Shown here: one piece after another, positions 5,266 through 24,593 of the stretch
Position numbering within the stretch: the first letter of the stretch is position 1
Layout: each line of letters begins with the position of its first letter
DNA from: a virus
Reading direction: 5' to 3' (one strand)
Virus record (IMG/VR): IMGVR_UViG_3300049855_000111
Location: 1 to 43,825 of that record
DNA: 43,825 nt
Position numbers and translations under genes: made by a program
Notes under the pieces: model-generated
The model's database searches: none
What the model was told of the DNA's origin: nothing
What the model saw: the letters and a program-made list of their open reading frames with translations, nothing else

Positions 5266-5274
5266 AAGTACTCC

Positions 5275-6460: not shown

Positions 6461-6463
6461 CAC

Positions 6464-8263: not shown

Positions 8264-8265
8264 GG

Positions 8266-10190: not shown

Positions 10191-10213
10191 GGCTTCCTCC
10201 ACTTCTCGGGAAT

Positions 10214-10235: not shown

Positions 10236-10259
10236 TCTGTGTCTACGAAGAAGCCAAAG

Positions 10260-10430
10260 TTACTTGGCGTTCTTGGCGTTACCCACGTTCAGCGCCAGCA
10301 AGTCCAGCACCTTACGTACCTGACTCAGCACTACGCCCAACTTCTCCGCTTTCGGCACGAGGGCCGCGACAGCAGAAGCAACACCGACTACGTTGGTGGC
10401 CAGCACCAGGATATCAACAATCTCAAACAT
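10260..10430 (-). CDS. Small hydrophobic protein, possible membrane protein
   Basis: 56 residues from ATG 10430, one base after the exonuclease stop, with GGGAG inside the end of that gene. Residues 1-30 are hydrophobic (EIVDILVLATNVVGVASAVA), followed by an amphipathic helix and a basic tail (NAKNAK). It is the last gene before the 10214 terminator. The size and pattern could suit a small holin or a membrane effector, but no family is recognised. Confidence 0.5.
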   Translation of the reverse strand: MFEIVDILVLATNVVGVASAVAALVPKAEKLGVVLSQVRKVLDLLALNVGNAKNAK

Positions 10431-10431
10431 A

Positions 10432-11412
10432 TTATGGCTCCCATTTGAACCGTGTTTCACGATAGCGACGAAGGAACAGCAGGTTTGCTGTCTCCTCCAG
10501 GATTTCCCACCACATCATGTGCTCTCCGTTGAGCCCGATGGTGCCTTGAGGGTAGGCCAGTCTGTATTGTTCTGCAACAAAATCCGCCATGTCACCCTCG
10601 GTGATAAACTGCGAGATTGCCGCTGTTGATTTGACTGGTCCCCACCCTGGTTTGCCCACCGTACCGGACAACCCCTTGATGTTGTCGGCCTTGTCTCCCA
10701 TCAGCATCTGAATATAGAGATTGCGGCAGGCTACGAGCTCTGACACAAACACTATACCATCCCCTATGTGACGCTTGTCTGGGTTCAGTTGCAGCCCGGC
10801 GATAGTGCGCAGGTCTTTATCGGGCGAGATGATGATGAACTCCCCCGGATTCTCACGTGCCAGACAGGCCACGCCATCATCTGCTTCCAGCCCTGCAAGT
10901 ACCTTTGCCCTGTACCGGGCCCTCAAGTGCTCCCGGATATGCTCATAAGCCAGAGGCTTCGTCATATTGTCCCGGTTGCCCTTGTACTTCTGGACGTTGG
11001 CGTCCTCGTTGCGCCAGAGGGTGCTGCCCTTGGTCAGATACCAGCGCAATTTGGTGGTGTGAGCAGCTGCCCGGATAGCCTTGGTACGCTGGCTGAGAAT
11101 CAACTCAGCCTTGTCGAACGGTTCCACCCAGTGGTACTCGTCAAACTCCAGCGCAGCCAGGAATTCCGGGTCCTGCTTCTTTTTCCACCTGTTCATCGTG
11201 TCACGCCCAGAACACTCGAACACTGAGGCGCCCTGTTCATCCACAGCCCAGCAGTCGCGGTGCTCTATGGCAAAGCCCGCCAGATACACCAGCATATCTG
11301 CGTCAACCAGCCCAGTGAGCTGGCTGCCCGATTTCATGTTGGGCCATGGCTTATTATTCAGTGGGCCGTAGGGCTCACCATCCTTGCGATAGGGGTGTGG
11401 ATTTACCAGCAT
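10432..11412 (-). CDS. 5'-3' exonuclease (FEN/RNase H-like)
   Basis: 326 residues, ATG 11412 with GGAG upstream. Conserved acidic motifs of the FEN/PIN-like 5' nuclease family are present: LVDADMLVYLAG (35-46), GLEADDGVA (174-182), SPDKDLRTI (196-204) and MGDKADNIKGLSG (238-250). The last leads into VGKPGWGP, the helix-hairpin-helix-type DNA-binding region. It removes RNA primers and flaps or degrades DNA from 5' ends during phage replication. It sits beside SSB and DNA polymerase in one transcription unit. About 30 residues before the first motif are non-conserved. Confidence 0.9.
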   Translation of the reverse strand: MLVNPHPYRKDGEPYGPLNNKPWPNMKSGSQLTGLVDADMLVYLAGFAIEHRDCWAVDEQGASVFECSGRDTMNRWKKKQDPEFLAALEFDEYHWVEPFDKAELILSQRTKAIRAAAHTTKLRWYLTKGSTLWRNEDANVQKYKGNRDNMTKPLAYEHIREHLRARYRAKVLAGLEADDGVACLARENPGEFIIISPDKDLRTIAGLQLNPDKRHIGDGIVFVSELVACRNLYIQMLMGDKADNIKGLSGTVGKPGWGPVKSTAAISQFITEGDMADFVAEQYRLAYPQGTIGLNGEHMMWWEILEETANLLFLRRYRETRFKWEP

Positions 11413-11414
11413 GG

Positions 11415-11663
11415 TTAAGCTCCGGCGTAGAAGTAGCCATTGATGGCGACAGCGAGCAGTAAGCGCACTGCTATGCTGCCTGCCTCCCACAGGATGCTGA
11501 CCCGGTAGGAGTACAGCAGCTCCTCCTCGTCAGCCTCACCCTCCATGAGGGCACTGAATATGTCCCAGCCCTCGCCGGTGGTCACACTCTGTTGCAGATT
11601 CCACGCATCTACTAGCGCATCGGCCAGGGCCAGCAGGGCCAGCAGTACCAGGATAGTCACCAT
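11415..11663 (-). CDS. Two-helix membrane protein, 82 residues
   Basis: ATG 11663 behind GGAGGA. Residues 2-19 are hydrophobic (VTILVLLALLALADALV) and residues ~57-78 form a second helix (AVRLLLAVAINGYFY), separated by an acidic loop (EGEADEEELL). Two membrane helices in about 80 residues resemble class II holins, but the gene sits in the replication module, not with a lysozyme. Role therefore uncertain. Confidence 0.55.
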   Translation of the reverse strand: MVTILVLLALLALADALVDAWNLQQSVTTGEGWDIFSALMEGEADEEELLYSYRVSILWEAGSIAVRLLLAVAINGYFYAGA

Positions 11664-11664
11664 G

Positions 11665-11826
11665 TTATTCCTCCTTCGGGGTGATAATGTGCTTGTTCCC
11701 ATCCACCACTACATGGTGGGTTTCCTCTGCCTTCTTCTTGACAATGAAGGCCAGCGCCTTCTCCATCGAGAAGAAGTGTTTGCGCTGCCCGTCACAGCCC
11801 ATGAACTCCTTAACAGCTTCAGGCAT
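11665..11826 (-). CDS. Small basic hypothetical protein
   Basis: 53 residues, ATG 11826 with AAGGGGG upstream. Soluble, with a lysine-rich middle (FIVKKKAEETHH) and a short strand-rich C-terminus. It overlaps the upstream coiled-coil gene by 8 nt. Nothing recognised. Confidence 0.55.
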   Translation of the reverse strand: MPEAVKEFMGCDGQRKHFFSMEKALAFIVKKKAEETHHVVVDGNKHIITPKEE

Positions 11827-12481
11827 CTTGTACCCCCTTACGGCGCAGCACCACCTCAAGGGTGTAGGGCGTGCCCTGTGCGTCTGTCTTCAGTTCGTCA
11901 TACACACCGTCAGTGAACAACAGGCGTGCAGCCTTGGACGATTCACGGCCCCGGATAACCACTACCACCTGCTTGTCCTCCATCAGGGGCATGACGTTTT
12001 CCTGCACCATCTTGGCCTTGAGCGCAGCGTTCTCAGCTTCCAGCTCAGCCAGCCGGGCATTGTTGGCGTCAGCCAGCAGCTTGGCTGCCTTGTCTGACTC
12101 GGCCTGCAACGCAGCCTTCACCGGGTCCTCCACCTTCTTGACCTGCTCAGTGAGTTCCTTGAGGCGAGCATCCAGCTTCCGTGTGGCATCCAGCCACGGG
12201 GCCTTGGCATCCTTATGCGCATTGGTCAGCGAGGTGCGCAGGGAGGAGCACTGCTTGGTGAACGCCTTCAGTTGCTCGTTGCCCTTGATGGTGGCAGCGA
12301 GAGCCGTCAACTTGTCACCAGTGGGCAGGGTCGCGTACTCATCCACAATCTGTGTGATGAGGGCAGTGCCAGCATTGGTGATGCTACCAAGTGACTTGCT
12401 CAGGTCCATGGCCGGGAGCAGCTCACCGCTCTGGGCCGGTACAGTAACATCCGTGGATTCGACTTTCTTTCTGGGTGCCAT
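11819..12481 (-). CDS. Coiled-coil early protein, 220 residues
   Basis: ATG 12481 with GGAGG upstream and an intrinsic terminator just before it. Residues ~75-170 are a continuous charged helix with heptads (LDARLKELTEQVKKVEDP, LAELEAENAALKAKM). The C-terminal 50 residues are strand-like (VVVVIRGRESSKAARLLF). Phage proteins of this shape occur near SSB and recombination genes, but I cannot name the family with certainty. Confidence 0.6.
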   Translation of the reverse strand: MAPRKKVESTDVTVPAQSGELLPAMDLSKSLGSITNAGTALITQIVDEYATLPTGDKLTALAATIKGNEQLKAFTKQCSSLRTSLTNAHKDAKAPWLDATRKLDARLKELTEQVKKVEDPVKAALQAESDKAAKLLADANNARLAELEAENAALKAKMVQENVMPLMEDKQVVVVIRGRESSKAARLLFTDGVYDELKTDAQGTPYTLEVVLRRKGVQDA

Positions 12482-12493
12482 GGGGCCTCCGAT

Positions 12494-12518
12494 AAAAAAG
12501 CCCCGCGTAGTGCGGGGC
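12494..12518 (-). terminator. Intrinsic terminator inside the leftward array (after the SSB gene)
   Basis: On the - strand GCCCCGC (12518-12512), loop ACTAC, GCGGGGC (12506-12500), then TTTTTT (12499-12494). It separates the SSB-like gene from the coiled-coil gene and exonuclease. Part of its surroundings also carries the GGAGG ribosome site of the next gene. Confidence 0.85.
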
Positions 12519-12538
12519 TATTGGGTTTAACGAGGGGG

Positions 12539-13333
12539 TTATTCGTCCTCGTTGTACTCGGGCAAGTCATCGCCGTCGTCGGCGTCCTGCTCCTGCGCTT
12601 GGCGCCCCTGGGCCTTACCGCCGCCCTTGGACGGGTTCATCACGGCAGTGGTCTCCTCTTGGAAGCGCTCAGTGATTTCGGCCAGTAGGTCCATCACAGC
12701 GTCGTACTGCTTGGCCTTGGCAGACGGGAGAGCCACGGCGCCATTGGTCAGCAGCACACCCAGCACAGCGATAGCCGAGTTGCGGGATGCCTGCAACTGG
12801 ATGGCCTTCTGCGTTATGATGTCCCGCTTTTCTTTGTCGGCCCAGTAGGCATCCTTGCCTGCGCCAGCTCCACCTCCCGCAGCAGGGCGTGCACTTCCTC
12901 CCTGAGCTGGGCGAGAGTTGCCTTGTGAGTGGCCACCGCCATCCCCACCACTGCGTCCCTGGCCTTGGCGTGAGCCGCCACCCTGTTGTCCGCCCTGAGA
13001 GCGACCGCCGCTGCCCTGGCCTCGGCCTTGGCTCTGGCCTCCACGGCCCTGTCCACCTCCGCGCTGGCCACCACCACGGCTATTGCCACCACCACCCCCA
13101 GCAGTAGGACCATTGCCGACAGCATTGATGATGTTAAAGGTATCCAGGTCCACATTGGCGTAGTCTCCATTCCAGCGGATGTAGAACTCCACCTCGGAGC
13201 CCTCGCCACACTTGGGCGGGAACTTGCCGAAGCCATACGATTCACCATTGATGGTGAGTTTCCAGAAGTCACCCTTGGCGCCAGAAGCGCAGTAGAACTC
13301 GTCGATAAAACCACTTACAAAATCATCACTCAT
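12539..13333 (-). CDS. SSB-like single-stranded DNA-binding protein with glycine-rich linker
   Basis: 264 residues, ATG 13333 with TGGAG upstream. Residues ~1-75 are beta-rich (FWKLTINGESYGFGKFPP, VEFYIRWNGDYANVDLDTF) and fit an OB fold. Residues ~80-160 are almost only Gly, Gln, Ser and Arg with RGG-type units. A helical segment of ~65 residues follows, then an acidic tail ending NEDE. OB fold, flexible linker and acidic tip is the architecture of replicative SSBs. The tail lacks the usual terminal aromatic residue. The gene lies between DNA polymerase and a terminator. The RGG linker is unusually long. Confidence 0.7.
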   Translation of the reverse strand: MSDDFVSGFIDEFYCASGAKGDFWKLTINGESYGFGKFPPKCGEGSEVEFYIRWNGDYANVDLDTFNIINAVGNGPTAGGGGGNSRGGGQRGGGQGRGGQSQGRGQGSGGRSQGGQQGGGSRQGQGRSGGDGGGHSQGNSRPAQGGSARPAAGGGAGAGKDAYWADKEKRDIITQKAIQLQASRNSAIAVLGVLLTNGAVALPSAKAKQYDAVMDLLAEITERFQEETTAVMNPSKGGGKAQGRQAQEQDADDGDDLPEYNEDE

Positions 13334-13334
13334 C

Positions 13335-15326
13335 TCATGTCTCCAGTGCTGTGTAGTCAACGCCCGCCATTTGGTACGGTGGCATCCTCATTACCTTACG
13401 CTCGGCGATGTAACAGTCCTTGCCCTTTGCTCCCCAGTGTGTGCCTGCGGCGAACCCCAGGCCCAGAGGCACATTGAACTTTAGACCATACACCAACTCA
13501 AGGTAGGCATAGACAGCATCTAGGAAAGCCCAGTTGCTGTATTCATAGAGCTGTTCCAGCTCCTCTTCCGGGGCCTCACTGACCACTGAGTCGTGGACCG
13601 TGTTGCTTAGGAACGCTTGCATATCTGCCATCAGGTGCCACAGGTAAGTGGCAGCCACCGGCACAATCTCTGCCGTGGCCAGGTTCTGCACCGGGTAGTT
13701 GCAGATACTGGGCCAGTCGGCATTGTACTCACCGCGTGACATCTTGCAGGCAGGGAAGTAGAAGTGCATCCCGGTGACATGCTTCATGCGCTTGTTACGC
13801 AGGCACGCTCCCTCGTTCTTCTTCTGCCAATCGCAGATGCCGGTGTACTTCTTGCGGAACGCTGCGTAGTAGGCCATCTGTGCATCATTGCCATACTGCC
13901 CACCGTACAGCGGCTTGAAGGTCTCCGACTTCGCATCAGTCCGCTGGTTATCAGTCACACCCTCCAGGCTCACGTTGTTCAGGACGTGGGCCGTGTACCG
14001 GTGGACGTCAAAGCCGTTAATGATTTCTTGACAGGCCACCTTGTCCTGCCCCAGGAAGGCTGCCACCCTGAACTCTATCTGTGCACCGTCCGCCTCAACC
14101 ACGTACCACCCCGGCTTACGGGAGGAGATGAGCTTCTTGTATGCACGAGGCATGTTCTGGAATTGGATTGACTTCGGCTTGGGGAACATGGCGAACTGAG
14201 TGGAGATACCAGTGGACGACAGGCGGTGGGTCACCGTCATGTTCTGGTTGAAGGATGCGTACATCGTGCAGTCCTCAACCTCGGTCACCACTGCATAGAA
14301 GTAGTCCAGGTTCTTACTCAGCGCCGAGCCCAGCTTACTGAACTGCTGCTTCAGCTCGATGAACTCCTTCTGTTTCTTCGTCTTCGGTGTCAGGTGTTTG
14401 AGTATGTCCTCTATCCCAGTTGGTCGCCACTCGACCCCCTTCTTTTTGGGCGGCTTGAACTTGAGCACATCATAGATGAACTCCGCCATCTGTGCGGGTG
14501 ACCGGGCATTACGGCCCTCAGTCATCACCAAGATACGGCGCTCCACATCTTCGAACGCGGCACGGGTGGATGTGTACTCCTCAATCACCCTCTCCTTGTC
14601 CAGATGCACACCCCTCCCCTCTATCTCGGCAAGCACCGGGGTGAAGATACAGCGCGTAAACAGCACACCCAGTACTTGCTCCTTCACCAGCCTCTCACGC
14701 ATACGGAGCCACAGTTGCTTCGTCATCAGGGTGTCTTCTACAGCCCGACGTTTGAGCAACGACTCCGGCATCAGGCTTGGACACACCCCATTCTCCATGC
14801 ACGTGGCGATGAACGCCCGCTTACCCCACTGGAGATACTGCTGGGCCAGGGTGTCCAGCTTGAGGGCACCACTCTTACCGCACTTGAGGTTGCCAGTGAG
14901 GACCATCTCGGCCAGCATGGTGTCGGCCACGAGCACCTTGCGCAAGTCCAGCCCGGCTCGGGCCAGCCATTGCAGGTCGAACTTGGCATTGTGCATGACC
15001 ACGAAGTCAGCCTCATAGCATCTCTGAATGAGGTCGTAGTGGTCGAACACTCCGCCGAAGTAGAAGGTGACATCGTCCGACTGCCCATGGGTCGCTGACA
15101 CACACACGGTGTCGTTATCACTCAGGAAGGCAGAGGGGGTGGCCTTCTTCCCACTACGCGGGGCCAGCTTAACCGTGGTCTCGAAGTCCAGCACCAGGTA
15201 GTTGTCTGACAGGTAGACGTTCGGGTCAGGGTCTTGCAGGAACCACGGCAGCTTGTCCTTGTACTCGGCGAGCACACGGAGGCAGCTTCGCCGTACCTTG
15301 TCAGAGCCTGTATTTAATCCGCTCAT
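13335..15326 (-). CDS. DNA polymerase I-family (family A) replicative polymerase with 3'-5' exonuclease
   Basis: 663 residues, ATG 15326. Exonuclease domain: DFET (47-50), MHNAKFDLQW (111-120) and an acidic third motif RAVEDTLMT (around D198). Polymerase domain: THRLSS (366-371), motif A EADGAQIEFR (411-420, catalytic D413), motif B R462/K466/F470/Y474-G, and motif C HDS (578-580). No 5'-nuclease domain is fused, consistent with a separate exonuclease at 10432. It replicates the phage genome with the primase and helicase encoded upstream. The start overlaps a small zinc-ribbon gene by 26 nt. All catalytic residues look intact, so proofreading is expected. Confidence 0.95.
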   Translation of the reverse strand: MSGLNTGSDKVRRSCLRVLAEYKDKLPWFLQDPDPNVYLSDNYLVLDFETTVKLAPRSGKKATPSAFLSDNDTVCVSATHGQSDDVTFYFGGVFDHYDLIQRCYEADFVVMHNAKFDLQWLARAGLDLRKVLVADTMLAEMVLTGNLKCGKSGALKLDTLAQQYLQWGKRAFIATCMENGVCPSLMPESLLKRRAVEDTLMTKQLWLRMRERLVKEQVLGVLFTRCIFTPVLAEIEGRGVHLDKERVIEEYTSTRAAFEDVERRILVMTEGRNARSPAQMAEFIYDVLKFKPPKKKGVEWRPTGIEDILKHLTPKTKKQKEFIELKQQFSKLGSALSKNLDYFYAVVTEVEDCTMYASFNQNMTVTHRLSSTGISTQFAMFPKPKSIQFQNMPRAYKKLISSRKPGWYVVEADGAQIEFRVAAFLGQDKVACQEIINGFDVHRYTAHVLNNVSLEGVTDNQRTDAKSETFKPLYGGQYGNDAQMAYYAAFRKKYTGICDWQKKNEGACLRNKRMKHVTGMHFYFPACKMSRGEYNADWPSICNYPVQNLATAEIVPVAATYLWHLMADMQAFLSNTVHDSVVSEAPEEELEQLYEYSNWAFLDAVYAYLELVYGLKFNVPLGLGFAAGTHWGAKGKDCYIAERKVMRMPPYQMAGVDYTALET

Positions 15327-15498
15327 GGTCAGTGAACCCCGTTGTGCTGTTGTACTGGAGCACCTTCGGTGCAGTCACAATGCGGGTGCAGGGTGCACCG
15401 CAGCAGGTGCAGGTGGCCGGGCTGTCTCGTTCATCCACCTTGCGCTGGATAACATAGGTCACGTCACACTGCCCACACTTGTAGTCATAGTTAGGCAT
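15301..15498 (-). CDS. FmdB-type small zinc-ribbon protein
   Basis: 65 residues, ATG 15498. It begins MPNYDYKCGQCDVTY, with a second pair CTCCGAPC around residues 30-37: the CxxC...CxxC layout of FmdB-like regulatory zinc ribbons. Probably binds nucleic acid or protein. Its end overlaps the DNA polymerase start by 26 nt, so the two are translated from the same message. Confidence 0.7.
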   Translation of the reverse strand: MPNYDYKCGQCDVTYVIQRKVDERDSPATCTCCGAPCTRIVTAPKVLQYNSTTGFTDHERIKYRL

Positions 15499-15898
15499 GA
15501 GGCACCCCCTGTGGCCAGGCCAGATGGAAGTGCCTGCCTCGTTCGAGCAACTTGGTTACCGTCTTGTCCCAGGGCCAGTCGGCACGGGCGTAGAAGGCGT
15601 CGTGGATTGTCTGCAACTCAGTGAGCAGACGAATCTTGTCGCGGCGCAGCTCGTTACTCTCGTCGGTGTCCAGTACCCCGGACTTCTGTAGAGCTGATTG
15701 AACAGGGGTATCCGCTGGGGTGTACCCTTCTACACTCCTGGTGTAGTAGCGCGGCTGGATTAAGCAGCCTACAGCGCAGGATGTACCGTCACGGCTCACG
15801 TACTGACACTCGAACATGTTGTCCACTGGTTGCTGACTCACCCTGCTCTGTGTGAACAGGTGAGTAACCACTCTGGTATAAATCTCTTGCAGGGTCAT
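15491..15898 (-). CDS. Conserved phage hypothetical protein (CAVGCLI type)
   Basis: 135 residues, ATG 15898 with AGGAG upstream. Contains SRDGTSCAVGCLIQPRYY (~35-52), a pattern seen in many small phage proteins of unknown function, then an acidic helix and a C-terminal FHLAW segment. The spaced cysteines could bind a metal or sit in an active site, but this is not established. Confidence 0.6.
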   Translation of the reverse strand: MTLQEIYTRVVTHLFTQSRVSQQPVDNMFECQYVSRDGTSCAVGCLIQPRYYTRSVEGYTPADTPVQSALQKSGVLDTDESNELRRDKIRLLTELQTIHDAFYARADWPWDKTVTKLLERGRHFHLAWPQGVPHA

Positions 15899-15907
15899 GG
15901 TGTTCTC

Positions 15908-16219
15908 CTAAAATTTCAGGTCATCGTCAAACCCATCCGGGGGTATGTCGTACTCATGTTTTGTGGCGGCGGCCCGCTTGCGCTCCTGGCACGTGGGGCA
16001 GGGACACAGGGGACCGTGGCCTATACCTGCCTGGTCATCCCACGGGGGGTTATCATCAGCAGTGGGCGGCACTATTGGGTGCGCCAGTAACTTCGCGGGG
16101 TAACCGGGTAGGTCGAGGCTGACAATGGTTCGGCCTTTCTCATCCACCAGCAGCCACCCCACAGGCTTGTAGCCCTGTTGTGTGTGGCGCATTAGCTTAT
16201 GTGTGCGCGTCTGTGTCAT
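15908..16219 (-). CDS. Small hypothetical protein with CxCxxC motif
   Basis: 103 residues. ATG 16219 overlaps the helicase stop (TGATG) and GGAGGACTG is upstream. The N-terminal half is a small beta domain (GYKPVGWLLVDEKGRTIVSL); CPCPTC at ~72-77 may bind zinc; the C-terminus is acidic (GFDDDLKF). Translational coupling to the helicase suggests a replication-related role (inference). Confidence 0.55.
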   Translation of the reverse strand: MTQTRTHKLMRHTQQGYKPVGWLLVDEKGRTIVSLDLPGYPAKLLAHPIVPPTADDNPPWDDQAGIGHGPLCPCPTCQERKRAAATKHEYDIPPDGFDDDLKF

Positions 16220-17415
16220 CAGTCCTCCAGTTTACTGAGCTGTTGGTTGAGCCGGATGCGGAAGCCGTCGTGTATACCGGATGCCTTGTTCTTGCACACC
16301 TGTATCCACCGCTCACCTGTGGCGAGCATGTCCTTGCTGGCACCCATACCAATCATGATGTCAACCTGTGCCTGTACCCCCACGTTGGAGTAGTACACGT
16401 CCTTGATTTCCAGCACTGCCTTGTTGATTGCCTTCTCATCTGCCTGAGCCACTGACACACCAAGTACCTTGGTCTTGTTGTACAGGATGCGCAGGGCATA
16501 GCACACCTGCTCCAGCTTCTCTGTCTTGCTCGGTTCCTTGGTGCCTATGTTCAGGTTAATGACTTGGTCAACGATGCAGACGTCCGGTTTAATCTCCTCG
16601 ACCAGCCGGACAATGTCATCCACGGAGCCAGGATAGAGCTGCACCATGTAGAAGTTGTCGAAGCCACGGCCCATGGCCCGCTTGTCTGCCTCATCCGGGT
16701 GACTCTCTATCTGCTTGCGCGTCAACCCAGAGAAGCGGTTGAGGCCACGGATATAGTTGCGCTCCTCTGGTCCCTCATTGGGGATGTAGAGGACGCGCTT
16801 ACCCTGACGACAGAACCCAAAGGCCATGTTGTAGGACAGGCAGGACTTGCCGACGTTCACCGGGGCATAGATGAGGATGTGGTCACCGGGGAGCACACCA
16901 TCCAGCAGCTCATTCAGTTGGTCAGGTAGGAACTTGAACTGGCTACCCTCTTTGAAGGGGGCCATCAAGTCGTTGGCATTCACCCGGTGCATGATGCGGT
17001 AGGTCTTACCACTACCGGCCTGCTCTACACCCAGGGTCTCAGTCTCGGTGTATTGCTTCATCAACTCACTGGCTTTCTCATAGTCACCCTTGTCCAGAGC
17101 AGCCCTTATCTCCAGCGAGATGTGTTCCATCACGTTGGCCTTGACGAACTCGACCACATTGGCCGGGCTCACCTTGGGTAGGTTCTCAAACACACGGGTG
17201 AATTGCTCCCTGTGTGCCGGGTGTCTGCGGCCCATGTCCTCCAGCACCAGCTGGCCGTCAGCACATGTGGCCCCATCGTCCGCCTTGTAGTAGCGGGCGA
17301 TACCCTTGAACACCTGCTTACCTAGCGTGGTGAGAGTCTTCTCCCCCTCCAGTTTGGTGACCACGTCGAAGGCTTTACGGGATTGCAGCGCCGCCGCTAA
17401 TACCTTCTCCTCCAT
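16219..17415 (-). CDS. Replicative DNA helicase (RecA-fold, T7 gp4/DnaB type)
   Basis: 398 residues, ATG 17415 with AAGGAG upstream. Walker A is APVNVGKS (184-191, first Gly replaced by Ala), Walker B DVCIVD (279-284). VLGVSVAQADEKAINK (~315-330) fits the sensor glutamine motif. The preceding linker helix (residues ~90-125) is like the ring-forming linker of hexameric helicases. Expected role: 5'-3' unwinding ahead of the phage polymerase. It follows the primase with a 41-nt overlap in another frame, so it looks like a two-gene version of T7 gp4. An AGSGKT at ~133-138 in the linker is not the real P-loop. Confidence 0.85.
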   Translation of the reverse strand: MEEKVLAAALQSRKAFDVVTKLEGEKTLTTLGKQVFKGIARYYKADDGATCADGQLVLEDMGRRHPAHREQFTRVFENLPKVSPANVVEFVKANVMEHISLEIRAALDKGDYEKASELMKQYTETETLGVEQAGSGKTYRIMHRVNANDLMAPFKEGSQFKFLPDQLNELLDGVLPGDHILIYAPVNVGKSCLSYNMAFGFCRQGKRVLYIPNEGPEERNYIRGLNRFSGLTRKQIESHPDEADKRAMGRGFDNFYMVQLYPGSVDDIVRLVEEIKPDVCIVDQVINLNIGTKEPSKTEKLEQVCYALRILYNKTKVLGVSVAQADEKAINKAVLEIKDVYYSNVGVQAQVDIMIGMGASKDMLATGERWIQVCKNKASGIHDGFRIRLNQQLSKLED

Positions 17416-18247
17416 AAATTCTCCTTATCGGTTGTATCACCTGCTGCATAAGCTGAGCAGGAGACAAATCTTTCGGGTCGTCACCAGCAAGGGGCACAAA
17501 GCTCACACTCTTAAACATAAGGGCGTGTTCTCGTACCATCTTGCGGGCAGTGTTGGTGGCATCGGCATCCAGCACAAAGACCAGATGCTGGACACCGGCC
17601 CTGAGTATGGCACGGATTGCCTCTTGGCCAACACTGGTCCCTGACAGGGCACATGCCGGGGTGAACTGGTTGACACGGAGCGCAGACCAGTAATCCTCCA
17701 GCACCACAAGCGTGTTGACCACGCCTCCCCAGGGTTTCATAAGACACGAGGGATTTATCCCCTCAAGGGTGGGGCGGAAGATTGCCCTGGCCTTGGGTTG
17801 TGCCCGGTGCTGCCTAAGCTGCACCTCTGGGTAGGTGCGGGCAATGTACCCCTCCATCCCCCTGTCTAGGCCGGTGATGGGCAGCAACACCCGCTCACTG
17901 TCCTCATCCCACATCACCCCGTTGATATACAGGTCCTCATCCTGTAGGTAGAAGCGACCACACAGGTACTCGGCCACGTCCTCGGGCACCTTCTCCGGTG
18001 TCAGGTAGGACCAGCCCGGCGCCACCTTGCGCAGCTTCTTACCGCTGTACTGCACAGCACCACCCACCTTACCCCGTAACCCACAGCTGTTGCGGTAGCA
18101 CTTATAGGCCAAGCCATCGGCGTCGGCCCATATCACCAGTGAGTTACCGGGACTGTTACAGGAGGGGCACTTCAGGTGGGCACTACGGTCACCCACCGTC
18201 AGGTCCATACCGAGCAGGGAGATTTCATCATCATACCTGCCTGCCAT
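17375..18247 (-). CDS. DNA primase (zinc finger plus TOPRIM)
   Basis: 290 residues, ATG 18247 with AAGGAG upstream. An N-terminal zinc finger (CPSC at 27-30, then CYRNSC around 50-55) reads the template. The TOPRIM core shows VVLEDYWSALRV (conserved Glu) and FVLDADAT (DxD metal site). It makes RNA primers for lagging-strand synthesis. It corresponds to the primase half of T7 gp4, but as a separate polypeptide ending 41 nt inside the helicase gene. Confidence 0.85.
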   Translation of the reverse strand: MAGRYDDEISLLGMDLTVGDRSAHLKCPSCNSPGNSLVIWADADGLAYKCYRNSCGLRGKVGGAVQYSGKKLRKVAPGWSYLTPEKVPEDVAEYLCGRFYLQDEDLYINGVMWDEDSERVLLPITGLDRGMEGYIARTYPEVQLRQHRAQPKARAIFRPTLEGINPSCLMKPWGGVVNTLVVLEDYWSALRVNQFTPACALSGTSVGQEAIRAILRAGVQHLVFVLDADATNTARKMVREHALMFKSVSFVPLAGDDPKDLSPAQLMQQVIQPIRRIYGGEGISGGAAIP

Positions 18248-18250
18248 GTG

Positions 18251-18829
18251 TTACTCCTTGCCCCAGTTACCTTTAAAAATCCATGGATGCGCGTGGTAAA
18301 ACTTCACGGCCAAGTCCCCGTCCATTTCCGCTAGGGTAACGGCGTCCATCACAGCCCATGCAGCGGGCGTGTGGCATTGGCAGCCCGCCCTAATATGTAG
18401 GTCGGTAATGGTAATGCAGTACGTTAGTCCCGTGATTACGACGGGTGTCCGCGCACATTGCTCCGTGACCGTGGCATTACCAGATACCCAGGCATTACCA
18501 TAGACCGTGGCATTACCATAGACCTTGGCATCACCAGATACCGTGGCATCACCAGATACCGTGGCATTACCAGATACCGTGGCATTACCATAGACCCAGG
18601 CATTACCATAGACCTTGGCATCACCAGATACCGTGGCATTACCAAATACCGTGGCATTACCAGATACCGTGGCATCACCATAGACCCAGGCATCACACTG
18701 CTGGATAAGGTTATGCTCCCCCTGTACCCAGCCCCCCAAATCCCCAGGGGCTACCCTAGCAAAGGCTATTAGGGCTCTGACTTGCCAGAGACCGTCAGCC
18801 CGCTGATTGACAAGCTCATACTTTTTCAT
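18251..18829 (-). CDS. YdcK-like hexapeptide-repeat (left-handed beta-helix) protein
   Basis: 192 residues, ATG 18829; the start overlaps the previous stop (ATGA). The N-terminus (MKKYELVNQRADGLWQVRAL, then PGDLGGWV) is the typical opening of the YdcK family. Residues ~45-120 are about 13 six-residue turns of the form V-S/Y-G-N/D-A, encoded by exact 18-nt units. A C-terminal domain of ~65 residues follows. Such turns stack into a triangular beta-helix, as in hexapeptide acyltransferases; here the repeats are very uniform and no catalytic histidine is obvious in them. Function in phage unknown. Confidence 0.75.
   Translation of the reverse strand: MKKYELVNQRADGLWQVRALIAFARVAPGDLGGWVQGEHNLIQQCDAWVYGDATVSGNATVFGNATVSGDAKVYGNAWVYGNATVSGNATVSGDATVSGDAKVYGNATVYGNAWVSGNATVTEQCARTPVVITGLTYCITITDLHIRAGCQCHTPAAWAVMDAVTLAEMDGDLAVKFYHAHPWIFKGNWGKE
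18471..18686. repeat. Tandem 18-nt repeat array, 12 units, coding
   Basis: Twelve consecutive units of exactly 18 nt (+ strand form GTGGCATTACCAGATACC with few variants at positions 1-2, 8 and 12-15), then a partial 13th to 18698. Each unit encodes one hexapeptide turn on the - strand, so loss or gain of units keeps the frame. Confidence 0.95.
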
Positions 18830-19125
18830 GCTGCACCCCCCAACTCTTCCAGCATCTTGAACGCTGCGGCTGCTGGCATGAACTTAGGCACCCGCACTAA
18901 CTGCGGGGTGTCAATCATTGCCCCGGCCTTGGTCAGGAACAACTCACCAGTGACAGCGTCCCGCTTGGGTAACCACTGGCGGGTGTGCCCATCATAGCAG
19001 TGGTACTTAATGCCCGTGCTATTGGGGTTGATGATGGCCTTGTGGTCAACGTGCTTACGCACTATTGCCAGGGCGTCTTCGAGGCGCTGTTTATACAGAG
19101 CCGGGGGCATGTGCTTTTGTGCCAT
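18826..19125 (-). CDS. Hypothetical protein, 99 residues
   Basis: ATG 19125 with GAGGTGAATC upstream. Basic N-terminal helix (PPALYKQRLEDALAIVRKHV), then a mixed middle with HCYDGHTRQWLPKRD and a C-terminal Ala-rich helix. Soluble; no recognised domain. Confidence 0.55.
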   Translation of the reverse strand: MAQKHMPPALYKQRLEDALAIVRKHVDHKAIINPNSTGIKYHCYDGHTRQWLPKRDAVTGELFLTKAGAMIDTPQLVRVPKFMPAAAAFKMLEELGGAA

Positions 19126-19133
19126 GATTCACC

Positions 19134-19466
19134 TCACTCAAAGTGGCGGAAGTAGCGGAGCAGGCCACGTGTGGTGACCCGTGTATCTGCAACATAGAAG
19201 GAGGACACACCGGCGGCTGGGTTGCTGTGGTGTGCTGTGTGCTGAGCCTTGACGATATTGTATATCGCCCACTCACTGCCCGAGTTGTTGCGCAGGGTGC
19301 CGGGGTGCATCACCTTGAATACCTTTGGCTCCAGACTACCGGGCACCCACTTGAGGTTGGGTTCCCACTTCAGCAACTTACCTGAGCTGGTGTACCCGGC
19401 GGGACGGAACTCAGCATCATACTGTTTGGTCAGCTTGCGCAAAGCCTTGGCTTTCTTTCCGTTCAT
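19134..19466 (-). CDS. Basic hypothetical protein, 110 residues
   Basis: ATG 19466 with GAGGTGACAC upstream. The N-terminal 15 residues are strongly basic (NGKKAKALRKLTKQY), suggesting nucleic-acid binding; the rest is mixed alpha/beta with a histidine-rich stretch (AQHTAHHSN). Early gene of unknown function. Confidence 0.6.
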   Translation of the reverse strand: MNGKKAKALRKLTKQYDAEFRPAGYTSSGKLLKWEPNLKWVPGSLEPKVFKVMHPGTLRNNSGSEWAIYNIVKAQHTAHHSNPAAGVSSFYVADTRVTTRGLLRYFRHFE

Positions 19467-19477
19467 GTGTCACCTCA

Positions 19478-19900
19478 TTACTTGCATTGGATGTAAACGC
19501 CGCCCATCTCAGGGGGCAGCAGGGTGTAATCATCTACCGGCTCATCGACAGAGCAGGTGATGGTGATGTCGTCATGCATACCGTAGTACGCCACCTCACC
19601 GGGTACCCGTAGCTCCAGCCCACCAGTACCAGACAGCTTACCGCCTCTCACCGTGACGTTTTCTACGACGTACACAGCGTGCTGTTGGTGGGCACGGGCC
19701 AGCCGGTAACATAGGTTCTTTTCATGGTCGGTCTTGAACCGAACCAAGAGGCTCTGCTCCTGCTCCCCGTTGTACTTACCCCTGGTGGGGGCTGCGTCAA
19801 GACCAAGCAACCTGGCTTGGGCTATCAGCATCTGGTTGGCTGCGATTGACTCAGGCTGGGTCATGCCCTGTGTGTAGGCGCTCAGCATAAGGATGTTCAT
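19478..19900 (-). CDS. Hypothetical protein, 140 residues
   Basis: ATG 19900 with AGGAGAACAGCC upstream, overlapping the previous stop (ATGA). N-terminal helix, then strand-rich halves (AVYVVENVTVRGGKL, GLELRVPGEVAYYG). It looks like a small all-beta domain. No family recognised. Confidence 0.6.
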   Translation of the reverse strand: MNILMLSAYTQGMTQPESIAANQMLIAQARLLGLDAAPTRGKYNGEQEQSLLVRFKTDHEKNLCYRLARAHQQHAVYVVENVTVRGGKLSGTGGLELRVPGEVAYYGMHDDITITCSVDEPVDDYTLLPPEMGGVYIQCK

Positions 19901-20097
19901 GGCTGTTCTCCTGCAATCATGGCCGCCAAGATACGATTCACCTTGAAGGCAGCCAGTGCTATTGATGGTTCTGGATGGTGCCTCTGGCCGGGGCCGGGAG
20001 GCAGTAGGTTGAGGGTGCTCAGGTCGTGGGGCATAACCTCCACAACCATGGCGCCCGGTAACCATGGCTTGTACTGGTCACGATAATGTCTGGGCAT
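19897..20097 (-). CDS. Small hypothetical protein, 66 residues
   Basis: ATG 20097 with TAGGAGATACC upstream. Basic aromatic N-terminus (PRHYRDQYKPWLPG), proline-rich middle, helical C-terminus. Coupled to the next gene by ATGA. Unknown. Confidence 0.55.
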   Translation of the reverse strand: MPRHYRDQYKPWLPGAMVVEVMPHDLSTLNLLPPGPGQRHHPEPSIALAAFKVNRILAAMIAGEQP

Positions 20098-20105
20098 GGT
20101 ATCTC

Positions 20106-20390
20106 CTACCTACAGAAGGACCGGGTGATGGCTGAGTAGTCGACGGGCTCATCCTCTACCGGTGGGAGGGCGTCAAAGCGCTGGTCTATATCTTGGTCGC
20201 TATGATTAACCAGCAACTTGAGTTCATACGGATACATGAGGACACAGCGGTTGGTGCTATCGAGCAACACAGTGATGCGGTCACCCGCAGCGCCGGGATG
20301 AACGGCAGTAACCACGCCGGTCTCCCCCACATCCACACCACCGTGGTTGGGCACCACTTCCACCCTGTCACCTACATCATACTGGAGCAT
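20106..20390 (-). CDS. SH3/KOW-like small protein, 94 residues
   Basis: ATG 20390 with GGGGGTGATGT upstream. Residues 1-60 (DVGDRVEVVPNHGG, GVVTAVHPGAAGDRITVLL, CVLMYPYELKLL) form the strand pattern of a small beta-barrel of KOW/SH3 type. The tail is acidic. Such domains often bind RNA polymerase, ribosome or RNA, but the partner is unknown. Confidence 0.6.
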   Translation of the reverse strand: MLQYDVGDRVEVVPNHGGVDVGETGVVTAVHPGAAGDRITVLLDSTNRCVLMYPYELKLLVNHSDQDIDQRFDALPPVEDEPVDYSAITRSFCR

Positions 20391-20703
20391 ACATCACCCC
20401 CTGTGCTATGTAGTTATCCCCGCGCAGCTTGGCTATGAGCACCAGACTGAGCCCTGCAATGGGCATCTGGGCTATATCCAAATGCTCCCTGATTTCCTTG
20501 AGATGCGTGGCCATCACCACGGCATCACTTGCCTGTTGGTAGTGGCCGAATATGCGGCCATCTGGCAGCTGCACATGCCATCGGTCGTCGCCAGTACCCA
20601 CGATGATGAAGGGGAACACATCCCCGGCACTATGCCCCCGGATACCTCCGTTGCTGGCTAAGTGGCCTGACGTAGCAGCCACGCCATGTGCTTGGTTTGT
20701 CAT
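20377..20703 (-). CDS. Hypothetical protein, 108 residues
   Basis: ATG 20703 overlaps the previous stop (ATGA), with CAGGGA upstream. Glycine-rich N-terminus, then a small beta domain (DVFPFIIVGTGDDRWHVQLP) and helices. Soluble; no known domain. Confidence 0.55.
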   Translation of the reverse strand: MTNQAHGVAATSGHLASNGGIRGHSAGDVFPFIIVGTGDDRWHVQLPDGRIFGHYQQASDAVVMATHLKEIREHLDIAQMPIAGLSLVLIAKLRGDNYIAQGVMYAPV

Positions 20704-21140
20704 GATGTTTGTCCCTGTTTGCGGGCCTTGCGTTCTTGATAAACACACACAGGGCACCGGCTGGTGGTGATGTCCTTTACTGCACACTCAGGGTGAACAG
20801 TGCAGGGGTCACAGGAGTAGAAGCGCAGCCCAGTAGCACGGGCATCAGCCTTGCTTGGCGCTACATTCTCGGGAGCACGCCAGCTACCGCGCCGTTTACG
20901 GGCGGCGTGGTCAGACGCCTCCATGATGGAGGTCAGCACCCACTCCCTGCCCCGGTTGTCGAACCGACGACACACGGAGGGGCCGTCCTTCAGGCTGTTC
21001 ATGAGTACGAGGGCAGCCATGGTTTGCTTGGGGTTGTGCCCACCACCCGACAGGTTAAGGCACACACGGGGTAACTCAACAGCCGTAACCTCTTGGCTAT
21101 GCTCAACCCCGTTCATCATTGTTGCGAGGTAGTAACGCAT
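20700..21140 (-). CDS. Hypothetical protein with C-terminal cysteine cluster, 146 residues
   Basis: ATG 21140 with AAAGGAG upstream. The C-terminal third has CDPC ... C ... CPVC (around residues 110-132), likely a zinc site, then a basic tail (YQERKARKQGQ). The middle is arginine/lysine-rich. A nucleic-acid-binding role is plausible. Confidence 0.55.
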   Translation of the reverse strand: MRYYLATMMNGVEHSQEVTAVELPRVCLNLSGGGHNPKQTMAALVLMNSLKDGPSVCRRFDNRGREWVLTSIMEASDHAARKRRGSWRAPENVAPSKADARATGLRFYSCDPCTVHPECAVKDITTSRCPVCVYQERKARKQGQTS

Positions 21141-21167
21141 CTGGTATCTCCTTTGGCTCCACCGCTA

Positions 21168-21506
21168 TCAATGCAGTGTGCGCTGTTCAGTTGGTTCGTG
21201 GGTGACTACCTCCACCTCTAACTCACGGATAAAGGTGCGGTCCAAGAGGAGGGAGTAGTCGAGTTCATAGAGCGCGTCAGACTTCTTGTCATACAGCTCA
21301 TGGTAGCGATGCACAAGGGCATCCGCCCACTCATCACCGTGTGCCTCGTACCCATGACGGGCTACAGTGGCATCCACTTCCGGCTTTGAGAAGAAGGCCA
21401 TACACTGGGCCTCCTCATCAAACACCCCATAGACAGGGGCCTCTTCGGCACCAGCCTGCTCTACCACCCCACTCCATATCTCCAGCATAAACTTATGGTC
21501 AGCCAT
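21168..21506 (-). CDS. Acidic hypothetical protein, 112 residues
   Basis: ATG 21506 with AAGGACAAAGCT upstream. Strongly acidic, mixed alpha/beta (YGVFDEEAQCMAFFSKPEVD). Small acidic early proteins are often inhibitors or DNA mimics, but that is speculation here. Confidence 0.55.
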   Translation of the reverse strand: MADHKFMLEIWSGVVEQAGAEEAPVYGVFDEEAQCMAFFSKPEVDATVARHGYEAHGDEWADALVHRYHELYDKKSDALYELDYSLLLDRTFIRELEVEVVTHEPTEQRTLH

Positions 21507-21526
21507 AGCTTTGTCCTTACAATGTG

Positions 21527-21805
21527 TTACAGATTCAGTGATGCCACCACAGCGGGGGGCACACCATCAAAGCGCAGATGCCCCCTTACCCAGCGGTATG
21601 TGTCCGGCGGGAGGTGGTCGTGTAGTAGGTGCAGGGTCCCCACATGGTAGAGGTTGTTCCAGTCCAGAACCAATGTCCCTCGCTCGGAACGGGAGCACAC
21701 CATGAGCACATCGAACAGGGTGATGTGGGATATTACGGCCCGTGGTTCCACCGGTAGGTGGTCGGCCAGCGATTGCAGCATGGCCAGCTTCAGGCAGGGT
21801 TTCAT
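21527..21805 (-). CDS. Hypothetical protein, 92 residues
   Basis: ATG 21805, with only a weak GTGGTG ribosome site. Its start lies 1 nt from the previous stop, suggesting coupling. Helical N-terminus, histidine-rich middle (YHVGTLHLLHDHLPPDTYRW). Unknown. Confidence 0.5.
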   Translation of the reverse strand: MKPCLKLAMLQSLADHLPVEPRAVISHITLFDVLMVCSRSERGTLVLDWNNLYHVGTLHLLHDHLPPDTYRWVRGHLRFDGVPPAVVASLNL

Positions 21806-21806
21806 G

Positions 21807-22076
21807 TCACACCACCACTATCACAGTGGTGGTGCCAGCGTCATGGGCTTGGGCATAGGATACCCGCAGGGCAGCACCGAGCGCCTTGAGTATCTTGTTC
21901 ATGTGGTTAGCCGTGGTTACGCTGTACCAGCCACACCAGTGGAGGTGCCACTCGCTGCCCTTGTGCTCGGCGATGATGTTACCGTGCAGGTAGTAGGCCC
22001 CGCCAAATGTGCTGGCGTTGTGGCAGGAGGCCTTCTCCCCGGCGACGAATGCATGGGCTACTTTGTCTACGCTCAT
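21807..22076 (-). CDS. Small conserved phage protein (LHGN...IA type), 89 residues
   Basis: ATG 22076 with GGAGGG upstream; longer versions starting near 22160 would run through a terminator. Contains VAGEKASCHNASTFGGAYYL, HGNIIAEH, and WYSVTTANHMNKILKAL, a layout common among short phage proteins of unknown function (I associate it with DUF8033, unverified). Ends in a run of valines. Confidence 0.6.
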   Translation of the reverse strand: MSVDKVAHAFVAGEKASCHNASTFGGAYYLHGNIIAEHKGSEWHLHWCGWYSVTTANHMNKILKALGAALRVSYAQAHDAGTTTVIVVV

Positions 22077-22138
22077 ATCAATACCCTCCAGTGAGAGTGA
22101 TAGTCCACTGTCCCGATACTGTTTCGACACAGTACCCC

Positions 22139-22168
22139 TAAACGAACAAGCCCCGCACATAGCGGGGC
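22139..22168 (-). terminator. Intrinsic terminator-like hairpin early in the leftward array
   Basis: On the - strand GCCCCGC (22168-22162), loop TATGT, GCGGGGC (22156-22150), then TTGTTCGTTT. The stem is strong, the T tract interrupted. It lies about 1.25 kb from the first gene of the array, in a 118-nt gap between genes. Confidence 0.65.
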
Positions 22169-22194
22169 CACCTGTTCAAACGAGCATGTGATTT

Positions 22195-22587
22195 TCATGG
22201 CCGCCTCCCCACACCGGATAGGCGCAGGTACATAGCGGTGATGCGCTCTGTGTTTGATGCCGACCGGCAGAAAGTGCACACCAGCTCGCGTGTCTTGGTC
22301 AGCACGTACTCTTTCGTGACAGCGTCATCGGCCATGATGATTGGACGTAGGTGGGCGCCCAGCTCCTCGGTCACCTCGTACACGAACACACCGGGCCAGC
22401 CTTCGTCCTGTTCTTCCAGTAGCATGGCCAGTATACCCTCCTCAGTCGTGACGATGTCGGCCCAGTCTGATAGCTCGTGGTACAGTTCCACACCGCCCTG
22501 ACCCCACGCCTTGATGAGGTCGTCAGTTACATTCAGGCCACATGTAAGGGCGGCGACGTTCACGCCCTTGTCATTTTCAATGTGCAT
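22195..22587 (-). CDS. Hypothetical early protein, 130 residues
   Basis: ATG 22587 with GGGGTGATACC upstream. Acidic, alpha/beta, with VCTFC around residues 103-107 and an acidic helix (LAMLLEEQDEGWPGVFVYEV). No family recognised. Confidence 0.55.
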   Translation of the reverse strand: MHIENDKGVNVAALTCGLNVTDDLIKAWGQGGVELYHELSDWADIVTTEEGILAMLLEEQDEGWPGVFVYEVTEELGAHLRPIIMADDAVTKEYVLTKTRELVCTFCRSASNTERITAMYLRLSGVGRRP

Positions 22588-22604
22588 GGTATCACCCCAG
22601 CAAG

Positions 22605-22742
22605 TTAGTTGGTGGCAGACTCGCGCCAGCAATGGGCAGCCTTGGTCATGCCGATACAGAATTGCCAGTGCTCAATCTCTCCATTGGCAAAGGCATCCAT
22701 CAAGTAACGCACGACGGCGTTGTACTTCTCACGATTAGTCAT
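22605..22742 (-). CDS. Small hypothetical early protein, 45 residues
   Basis: ATG 22742 overlaps the stop of the membrane-peptide gene (ATGA), which probably decides the start since the GGAG site is rather distant. Contains NREKYNAVVRYLMDAFANGE, HWQFCIGM and HCWRES, i.e. helical. Short but well placed. Confidence 0.5.
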   Translation of the reverse strand: MTNREKYNAVVRYLMDAFANGEIEHWQFCIGMTKAAHCWRESATN

Positions 22743-22852
22743 TTCTTGCCAAACTCCGGCCAGTAGAGGAACAGCACGACACCTAGTCCTGCCAGTAAGA
22801 GGCCGAGCCAGATTGCCCAGCACAATATGGAACCTACGGGGTCATTAAACAT
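22739..22852 (-). CDS. Single-pass membrane peptide, 37 residues
   Basis: ATG 22852 to TGA 22739, with GAGGTGAATC upstream. After MFNDPVGS a hydrophobic helix follows (ILCWAIWLGLLLAGLGVV), then LYWPEFGKK, so one transmembrane pass. It overlaps the first gene by 8 nt and the next gene by ATGA, filling an otherwise coding-free slot. Second gene of the early transcript; function unknown. Confidence 0.55.
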   Translation of the reverse strand: MFNDPVGSILCWAIWLGLLLAGLGVVLFLYWPEFGKK

Positions 22853-23414
22853 GATTCACCTCACCGGTACGGGCCGCTTCATCGGCGGCATACATGGCCT
22901 CGGCTGCGCCTTGTGTGGCAGCCTTCAGCAACTCTGGGCGGGCCAGTAACAGGGACAGCAAGTCACCTATGTTCTGGCCATCGTAGCCCTCTTTGGTCAG
23001 CTTCAAGCCGACACGTACAGCGTACTCTTCAGCGTTGAATTCCGCTGGCACTGTCTCTTTCTTGGCGAACAGGTCCGGCAACTTGGCCGCGACGTCGTCG
23101 ATAGTGGCGCATTGAGTGGCCCCTGCCAGCTCAAGCCCAAGGCGTGTCCGCAGTTGTTCGGCACGCTCACGCTTGTATTCATACTGCTCGTTGGTCTTGT
23201 TCCATACCAGCGGCAGATGTTTTAGCAGCCCTGACTTGAAGGCGCTCGGGGCGGCGCTATCGCGCACTGCCTTGACCTGCTCGGGCAGGTTATTACCCAT
23301 CACCAGTGACTGGTACACCACGTTGACGAACACCTCTTGCAGGCGGCTGTTATCGTTAGCGGCTGCGATGCTGGTCAGACGGGTTTTGAGGGTAGAGGCT
23401 GTATATTTTTCCAT
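22845..23414 (-). CDS. First gene of the leftward early transcript, 189 residues
   Basis: ATG 23414, with GGTGACC upstream; ATG 23426 is a possible alternative without a ribosome site. The sequence is helical (TASTLKTRLTSIAAANDN, REELKAAT-like Ala/Leu segments), basic in the middle (YEYKRERAEQLRTRLG) and acidic at the end. It lacks an N-terminal arginine-rich motif like lambda N. As the first gene after a ~400-nt structured leader it should be the earliest and most abundant protein; function unknown. Confidence 0.6.
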   Translation of the reverse strand: MEKYTASTLKTRLTSIAAANDNSRLQEVFVNVVYQSLVMGNNLPEQVKAVRDSAAPSAFKSGLLKHLPLVWNKTNEQYEYKRERAEQLRTRLGLELAGATQCATIDDVAAKLPDLFAKKETVPAEFNAEEYAVRVGLKLTKEGYDGQNIGDLLSLLLARPELLKAATQGAAEAMYAADEAARTGEVNHV

Positions 23415-23481: not shown

Positions 23482-23510
23482 TACAATGAAGCCCGCAGTT
23501 ATACGGGCTT
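23482..23510 (-). promoter_or_regulatory. Leader hairpin near the first early gene
   Basis: On the - strand AAGCCCG, loop TATAACTG, CGGGCTT, followed by CATTG, not a T tract. A stable stem about 70-100 nt upstream of the first start codon; not a normal terminator, more likely a leader structure. Confidence 0.5.
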
Positions 23511-23656
23511 GATGTATGCCATCCCTGTGTAGTCGGGATGCCACTATCTACGTGTGGGGAGACGGAGTTTAACCGCTGTCCCTCTGGTCACGTTATGCCC
23601 CCTGTGTAAGAGGGGCAATCCATTGTTCCCGCCAAGCTGCTTGGTCTGGATAGCGC

Positions 23657-23691
23657 TGTGTGTCATGGGCCCCACGAGGGAGCAACACACA
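23657..23691 (-). promoter_or_regulatory. GU-rich segment and long leader hairpin (boxC-like position)
   Basis: Transcript reads TGTGTGT (23691-23685) pairing with ACACACA (23663-23657), with an inner TCCC/GGGG stem and TCGT loop. The GTGTGTTG strand lies about 30 nt after boxA, the place of the GU-rich boxC in rRNA leaders. Confidence 0.5.
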
Positions 23692-23718
23692 AGCCATCTG
23701 GCTCACTGACGGGTCACA

Positions 23719-23731
23719 TTGTTAAAGAGCG
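23719..23731 (-). promoter_or_regulatory. boxA antitermination element
   Basis: On the - strand CGCTCTTTAACAA. This contains the boxA consensus CGCTCTTTA exactly and matches the E. coli rRNA boxA (TGCTCTTTAACAA) at 12 of 13 positions. In RNA it is the binding site of host NusB-S10. It lies about 80-90 nt after the nearest candidate promoter, in an untranslated leader. Confidence 0.8.
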
Positions 23732-23733
23732 TT

Positions 23734-23748
23734 GATGCGTACTGCATC
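23734..23748 (-). promoter_or_regulatory. Hairpin just upstream of boxA (boxB-like)
   Basis: On the - strand GATGC (23748-23744), loop AGTAC, GCATC (23738-23734), two bases before boxA. Hairpin-then-boxA is the order of rRNA leaders; lambda nut sites have boxA first. Confidence 0.6.
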
Positions 23749-23818
23749 TGGATGAATCAACTTTAGTCAACGCTGCTGGCTTCAACAACTCCGACCACTT
23801 CCGGCGTCTGACCTATTT

Positions 23819-23847
23819 GTTATGGGCCTAAGCCACATCGCTGTTAA
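23819..23847 (-). promoter_or_regulatory. Candidate sigma70 promoter for the leftward early array
   Basis: TTAACA (-35, 23847-23842), spacer 17, CATAAC (-10, 23824-23819): 5/6 and 4/6 consensus. Predicted start about 23812, which places the boxB-like hairpin and boxA within the first 100 nt of RNA. Confidence 0.45.
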
Positions 23848-23902: not shown

Positions 23903-24183
23903 GCATAACCCATGTTTGTGATTCATGTGGTCGGACCACTGTGTTTTCTAGCAACTTTATTTCATCCCCTGCTTGGTGTACTGGCATGACTGTTGCTATG
24001 CGGCTGCGGCAGTTCTACAGCGTGGACAGACCACTGGCTTGGTGGATGGGTGTGGCACATGGATTGCTTGGGGGCTCAGTGACTTGCAACTGTTGGGCCA
24101 ATGTTGGGGAGCGGACCACGGGTCCTGAGAGGTGTCCGGCCCTCTGTGTGCCTCCCACCATGGATATATGAAGAGGGGACATT

Positions 24184-24437: not shown

Positions 24438-24593
24438 CCTCCCTCTGCCCTCTGCCGCCTCCCATGTCCTAGCCAAGTTCACCTTCGTGTTCCTCTCAGG
24501 ATGTCCTTGACTCGGCCCTGGCAAGAGGCCGAAGTCATAGGAAGTGACAAGGCATTATAGGGATAGTAAAAATTTCATGTAAAGTGAAAAGAA

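Follow-up and report, generated by a model that had tools for sequence, protein, structure and literature searches.

Can a phage carry its early transcript forward with a signal that its host uses on ribosomal RNA operons? This question is raised by the leftward early leader of the window (the whole stretch of 43,825 nucleotides analysed here), for which the initial annotation had proposed a hairpin, a boxA and a GU-rich segment in the order of an rRNA leader, and a phage that borrows the Nus/rRNA antitermination machinery of its host. Judged from its sequence, the phage is a VpV262-like podophage of the Zobellviridae: PolA, terminase and the first early gene (gene 1) put it near Vibrio phage VpV262 and phages 1.077.O/1.070.O, and it shares with this family terminase, PolA and a gene order in which early and late blocks diverge. 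A terminase query against IMG/VR gave no matches, nor did near-identity and distant DNA searches of a phage collection with the leader and the genome. The features of the window to which we refer are the following.

24554 to 24583, minus strand: candidate early promoter TTTACA-18-TATAAT (11/12) from a consensus scan, ~0.8 kb upstream of boxA
23927 to 23939, no strand assigned: 13-bp palindrome GTGGTCGGACCAC upstream of boxA, a possible operator or binding site
23734 to 23748, minus strand: upstream hairpin GATGC(AGTAC)GCATC, 5 bp, ending 2 nt before the 13-base boxA and 3 nt before its GCTC core
23719 to 23731, minus strand: boxA CGCTCTTTAACAA, an exact match to the published GYTCTTTAANA, conserved in relatives
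23714 to 23718, minus strand: boxA 3' flank TGTGA (relatives, YGTGA/C or NYTGG; rRNA spacers, TYTGG)
23649 to 23698, minus strand: GU-rich long hairpin downstream of boxA (fold z = -1.65), not conserved in relatives, its membership of the element unsupported
23489 to 23510, minus strand: terminator-like hairpin AAGCCCGTATAACTGCGGGCTT + CATTGTATGT between boxA and gene 1, nine pairs and a weak U tract
22845 to 23414, minus strand: gene 1, the first early gene (189 aa), with homologues found only in VpV262, 1.077 and 1.070
4031 to 23414, minus strand: early/replication gene block (helicase, PolA, exonuclease, dUTPase, ParB-like and others), transcribed leftward

The boxA of the leftward early leader

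Read on the minus strand, the window has GATGC-AGTAC-GCATC at 23748-23734, then AA, then CGCTCTTTAACAA at 23731-23719, so that the hairpin, the 2-nt gap, the boxA coordinates and the exact consensus match of the initial annotation are borne out to the base. The gammaproteobacterial boxA consensus GYTCTTTAANA (PMC5725501) has its single match in the whole record here, in a non-coding stretch of 1.26 kb with the leftward early/replication block on one side and the rightward late block on the other. GCTCTTTAACA is likewise present in one copy in the record, and by simple arithmetic the chance of a 12-base exact match on the sense strand of the leader is ~1260/4^12 = 7.5e-5. The 3' flank of this boxA, which lies ~300 nt from gene 1, is only partly rRNA-like (AATGTGA versus AATYTGG of rRNA spacers), and the extended AATYTGG flank is seen in several relatives and in T7. 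An Rfam search of the window matched no family.

Folding of the 34 nt that precede boxA gives the upstream hairpin as the minimum-free-energy structure, and an equally good stem equally close to boxA occurs in 2.7% of shuffles. The GU-rich segment and its long hairpin, as a possible counterpart of boxC, fared worse: the fold of the 121-nt segment that contains them exceeds shuffles by just 1.65 sd, and no GU tract is seen when the leader sequences of the closest relatives are compared. Instead of boxC (UCUGUGUGGG) at 18-19 nt downstream, the window has a loose UGUGUG match at ~27 nt, for which the VpV262 and 1.077 leaders contain no equivalent. Since boxC serves 16S folding (PMC10250234), its lack does not exclude a function of boxA; we therefore speak of an rRNA-type boxA and not of a complete rrn leader. 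Of the proposed rRNA-leader order, the hairpin 5' of boxA stands, as it does in 19 of 32 units described below, and the GU-rich part is not supported.

The promoters found would place the start of the early transcript upstream of boxA, the best leftward match being TTTACA-18-TATAAT at 24583-24554, the best of three promoter-like leader sites where 1.5 are expected from shuffles. On its own strand the early block contains strong terminator-like hairpins at 22169-22149, 12519-12499 and 10238-10217, and its promoter-like sites are fewer than expected (4 versus 7.7 +- 2.5), all of these calls in the leader and in the block being consensus matches and not mapped ends. Terminator-like hairpins in leader and early block, together with few promoter-like sites, suggest that read-through might be needed. 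The palindrome core GGTCNGACC is restricted to the leader upstream of boxA, where the window has it once, VpV262 twice (453, 475) and phage 1.077 once (43524); the palindrome GTGGTCNGACCAC, present in these three phages, is perhaps an operator.

The homologues of gene 1 in VpV262, 1.077 and 1.070 (34-40% identity by tblastn) are each also the first gene past a boxA leader. Gene 1 itself has no Pfam or PHROG match, and its predicted structure has a mean pLDDT of 51.6. More generally, the first gene after the leader (~174-210 aa, no known function) belongs to one of two families, A1 and A2, and is a candidate partner of the leader. In a comparison of the window gene (in the A2 alignment) with those of eight other records (L213, L217, L221, L196, L211, L198, L205 and L354), A1 and A2 have in common just a weak W-N/D...F-KK stretch, and their union into a single family found no support (hhalign probability 0.8%). 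Elsewhere in the early block, the reading frame at 19478-20065 (minus strand) has a weak match, just under the cut-off, to S-adenosylmethionine lyase (PF23780, E 2.7e-6), a T3-like anti-restriction function.

Recurrence in related phages and beyond

The search for the same element in related phages, which the initial annotation had suggested, was successful. Among 29 records (28 comparison phages and the window), 26 of the 48 GYTCTTTAANA matches lie in sense early leaders, distributed over 16 records; with leader limits set by open reading frames once initial matches were known, these leaders make up 1.27% of strand-bases, so that 0.6 matches would be expected (~92-fold density; binomial p 1e-36, a value that ignores the relatedness between phages). 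Antisense matches in the early leaders of the 29 records number zero. Four of nine gene-1 leaders outside the matrix-building set also carry sites (6 versus 0.12 expected, 0 antisense), two of these four being close relatives of a training-set phage. VpV262 has GCTCTTTAACAACGTGA at 544, within a 0.9-kb leader ahead of ORF1, and phage 1.077 has it likewise ahead of its ORF1 homologue. At least two tandem copies are present in eight phages (CW02, KZY1_1938105, T5S1_444551, PA11, ICP2, 1.253.O, T2S1 and T2S2), with a spacing of usually 200-300 nt; several phages have 2-3 exact copies, up to four when near-matches are included. The leaders of GP100, the V. breoganii phages, VP41s3, P12053L, CRP-4, KZY1_1027853, T5S1_18163 and ctOsX contain no boxA, which is thus not essential to the family, and the alphaproteobacterial variant CTCTTTGACA was not found in Cobavirinae leaders. 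A search of IMG/VR with the pattern GCTCTTTAACAAYGTG gave 60 stretches, about chance by our own arithmetic, and was not used as evidence.

Two further placements were observed. In Klyazma, the annotated long terminal repeat (1-711) contains boxA, which is hence present at both genome ends. In PA11 (43587, 43897) and Pecta (49239), a boxA without an abutting hairpin stands ~45 nt before small ORFs, a suhB-like placement that is possibly a second usage.

The upstream hairpin recurs with boxA. Of 32 units from the window and its relatives, 19 (among them those of the window, VpV262 and 1.077) have a hairpin that closes 1-3 nt before boxA, compared with 5.6 in shuffles (maximum 10) and 2-9 at shifted positions. 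In a separate, non-redundant set of 63 viral sites chosen by boxA sequence alone, the figure is 23, against 10.3 in shuffles, and two shifted controls reach 18-19. Contiguous stems are over-represented upstream of rRNA spacer boxAs (22/69 at p<=0.05), which under the stricter 1-3-nt fold criterion are slightly enriched (21/69 versus 14.5). All 21 stem cells are paired in a Klebsiella phage trio, with one compensatory change, which is weak evidence from three sequences. Many relatives moreover have a strong sigma-70 promoter ~23-55 nt ahead of boxA; the 90 nt ahead of boxA hold a significant promoter in 13/32 units, versus 0/32 on the opposite strand and 5-7/32 at shifted positions. The CW02 unit illustrates this arrangement: TTGACA-17-TATAGT, then GAAGC(GATACA)GCTTC, then GTTCTTTAACAATCTGA. 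A large class of viral or prophage contigs (L381, L389, L397, L410, L437 and similar) reads AAGCGCCCTACAGGACGCTTa-GCTCTTTAACAATCTGG, with the hairpin ~1 nt before boxA.

The exact extended motif GYTCTTTAACAATYTGG, which is present in several leaders, points to an rRNA-type signal: 89 of its 121 matches in bacterial genomes adjoin 16S/23S genes. In IMG/VR it occurs in at least 120 stretches, none beside rRNA among the matches listed, and these include T7-like genomes that encode their own polymerase and carry the motif just past the early promoters. T7 itself has a single boxA at 813-823, on the sense strand of its early leader, downstream of the early promoters and upstream of gene 0.3. An exact rRNA-type boxA is likewise situated between early promoters and first gene in five T7-like contigs (L361, L388, L404, L386 and L439), two of which (L361 and L439) have a hairpin 3 nt before boxA; T7 has no abutting hairpin. 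We found no description of boxA in Zobellviridae or T7 leaders in the open-access literature searched; the specialist or subscription literature may have one.

What the boxA would do

The sequence, position, copy number and conservation of this boxA, the hairpin upstream and the promoter proximity in relatives are established, and NusB-S10 binding, read-through and an operon-wide effect are what its identity with the rRNA signal would predict. We consider it probable that an rRNA-type boxA heads the early transcript and that host Nus/rRNA machinery would give read-through independent of an N protein. Host RNA polymerase would start at the sigma-70 promoters of the leader; as the leader emerges, the small hairpin would fold and keep the adjacent boxA single-stranded for host NusB-S10, which with NusA, NusG, SuhB and probably S4 would modify the polymerase as on rRNA operons. 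No phage N protein would be required for the modified polymerase to pass terminators, both Rho-dependent and weak intrinsic ones, along the untranslated leader and the early operon of ~19 kb, and the repeated promoter-hairpin-boxA cassettes of many relatives would tag the transcripts from several promoters. In agreement with the initial annotation, no phage RNA polymerase was detected: T7-type polymerase (PF00940) was not found in the window, with T7 and three T7-like control records positive, and 0/23 window and Zobellviridae-type records matched in a search whose built-in control was silent. The proposed borrowing of host antitermination thus retains the rRNA-type boxA, the 5' hairpin, the early-leader conservation and the lack of a recognised N or polymerase, and its GU-rich part is not supported. 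Several observations speak against it: the nearest strong promoter of the window is ~0.8 kb upstream and not directly before boxA, the TGTGA flank is unlike rRNA TYTGG, boxC is missing, and some Zobellviridae do without boxA. Because rRNA itself is intrinsically Rho-resistant and Nus complexes can repress, for example at suhB (PMC5725501), a boxA need not mean antitermination.

An unlikely alternative is a lambda-type nut site, in which a phage N-like protein that has escaped recognition reads boxA plus a boxB. In its favour, lambdoid nut sites also contain a boxA, hairpins lie on one side of boxA or the other in many units, no function is known for gene 1 and the majority of the early proteins, and N proteins are short, fast-diverging and hard to recognise by sequence. 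However, one N would have to read every boxB of a phage, and tandem units within a phage match each other in boxA and ~5 nt (18/19 pairs at >=10/12), while their flanks, up- or downstream, agree in 1/19 pairs, which equals the shuffle level. There is no boxB common to these tandem units, which is not the outcome expected of a single N that has to read each boxB. In the relatives, hairpins downstream of boxA occur no more often than at shifted control positions, so that a downstream hairpin as boxB was rejected. Among the early ORFs no arginine-rich N-like product was recognised, as the initial annotation had stated; the short arginine-rich ORFs that were found mostly resemble out-of-frame readings of coding sequence.

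The preferred host-machinery reading also has to be weighed against repression, which we regard as quite improbable here: a Nus complex on boxA would repress translation of the first gene and promote Rho termination, providing feedback on or delay of early genes. E. coli suhB is the precedent, where repression still works when an insert of up to 100 nt separates boxA from the ribosome site (PMC5725501), and the PA11 and Pecta sites stand close to their ORFs; the distance from boxA to gene 1 in the window is larger, ~300 nt, and several phages have 2-3 boxAs distant from genes, often one per promoter. Very improbable, in our estimation, is a Nus sponge, in which abundant leader RNA would titrate NusB-S10 off host rRNA and shut down ribosome synthesis. 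Multiple boxAs near strong promoters would yield much boxA RNA, and NusB-S10 alone binds it with high affinity (PMC5725501), but a sponge would work without a place at the start of the early operon and without a fresh boxA after each promoter, and many phages have a single copy. That boxA-like letters are conserved by chance or for reasons unrelated to Nus factors, as the roughly chance-level matching of a slightly different 16-mer in IMG/VR (by our own arithmetic) might suggest, is scarcely credible in view of the leader and strand restriction, the copy number, the out-of-sample recurrence and the hairpin placement.

Wider meaning and comparison with known systems

The Nus-boxA complexes described so far belong to rRNA, to lambdoid phages and to a small number of cellular genes. 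Tentatively, and with somewhat less confidence than for the window itself, we suggest that promoter-hairpin-boxA cassettes may form an 'rrn-mimic' module that is widespread among lytic phages (Zobellviridae, the T7 group and others). Such a module would put the ribosomal antitermination complex on early transcripts, and would thereby give processivity without N and compete with rRNA for Nus factors. If true, lytic phages of Vibrio, Salinivibrio, Klebsiella, Erwinia, Pseudomonas and E. coli (T7) mark their early transcripts with a ribosomal signal, which would explain how host polymerase transcribes long early operons past terminators in polymerase-less T7-supergroup phages and would connect the takeover of the host by phage with ribosome synthesis. 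The idea can be tested directly with T7 and nusB or suhB mutants of E. coli K-12, and the role of the rrn boxB becomes testable as well, since the hairpin-then-boxA layout recurs in phages.

The HK022 put RNA is a polymerase-bound antiterminator that works without phage protein, Nus factors or boxA; it resembles the element of the window as an N-independent phage leader element and differs in having no boxA and no need of Nus factors. The suhB 5' UTR shares a boxA outside rRNA with the consensus GYTCTTTAANA (PMC5725501), but suhB boxA represses, and that of the window lies ~300 nt from the first gene, beyond the 100 nt from a ribosome-binding site up to which this type of control has been tested. 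With lambda nut (boxA-boxB with N) the window has in common a boxA in a phage early leader and, as we infer, host Nus factors; it differs in a hairpin that is 5' and not 3' of boxA, in hairpins that vary within one phage, where nut sites of one phage have an identical boxB 3' of each boxA, and in the lack of a recognised N-like protein. The T7-group early leader is similar as that of a lytic podophage with host-polymerase early promoters and one sense boxA, whereas T7 encodes its own polymerase and its boxA lacks the abutting hairpin present in some of its relatives. The gammaproteobacterial rRNA leader has the order boxB-boxA-boxC after P2, a boxA that is necessary and sufficient for factor recruitment and a boxB that is unexplained (PMC10250234). 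The phage element shares with this leader (rrnTAC) the exact boxA, the hairpin just 5' of it, the lack of a cognate N, the position at the transcript head after promoters and, in several relatives of the window, the extended AATYTGG flank; unlike the rRNA leader, it heads a protein-coding early operon without boxC or a leader-trailer helix, and relatives carry it in promoter-linked tandem units.
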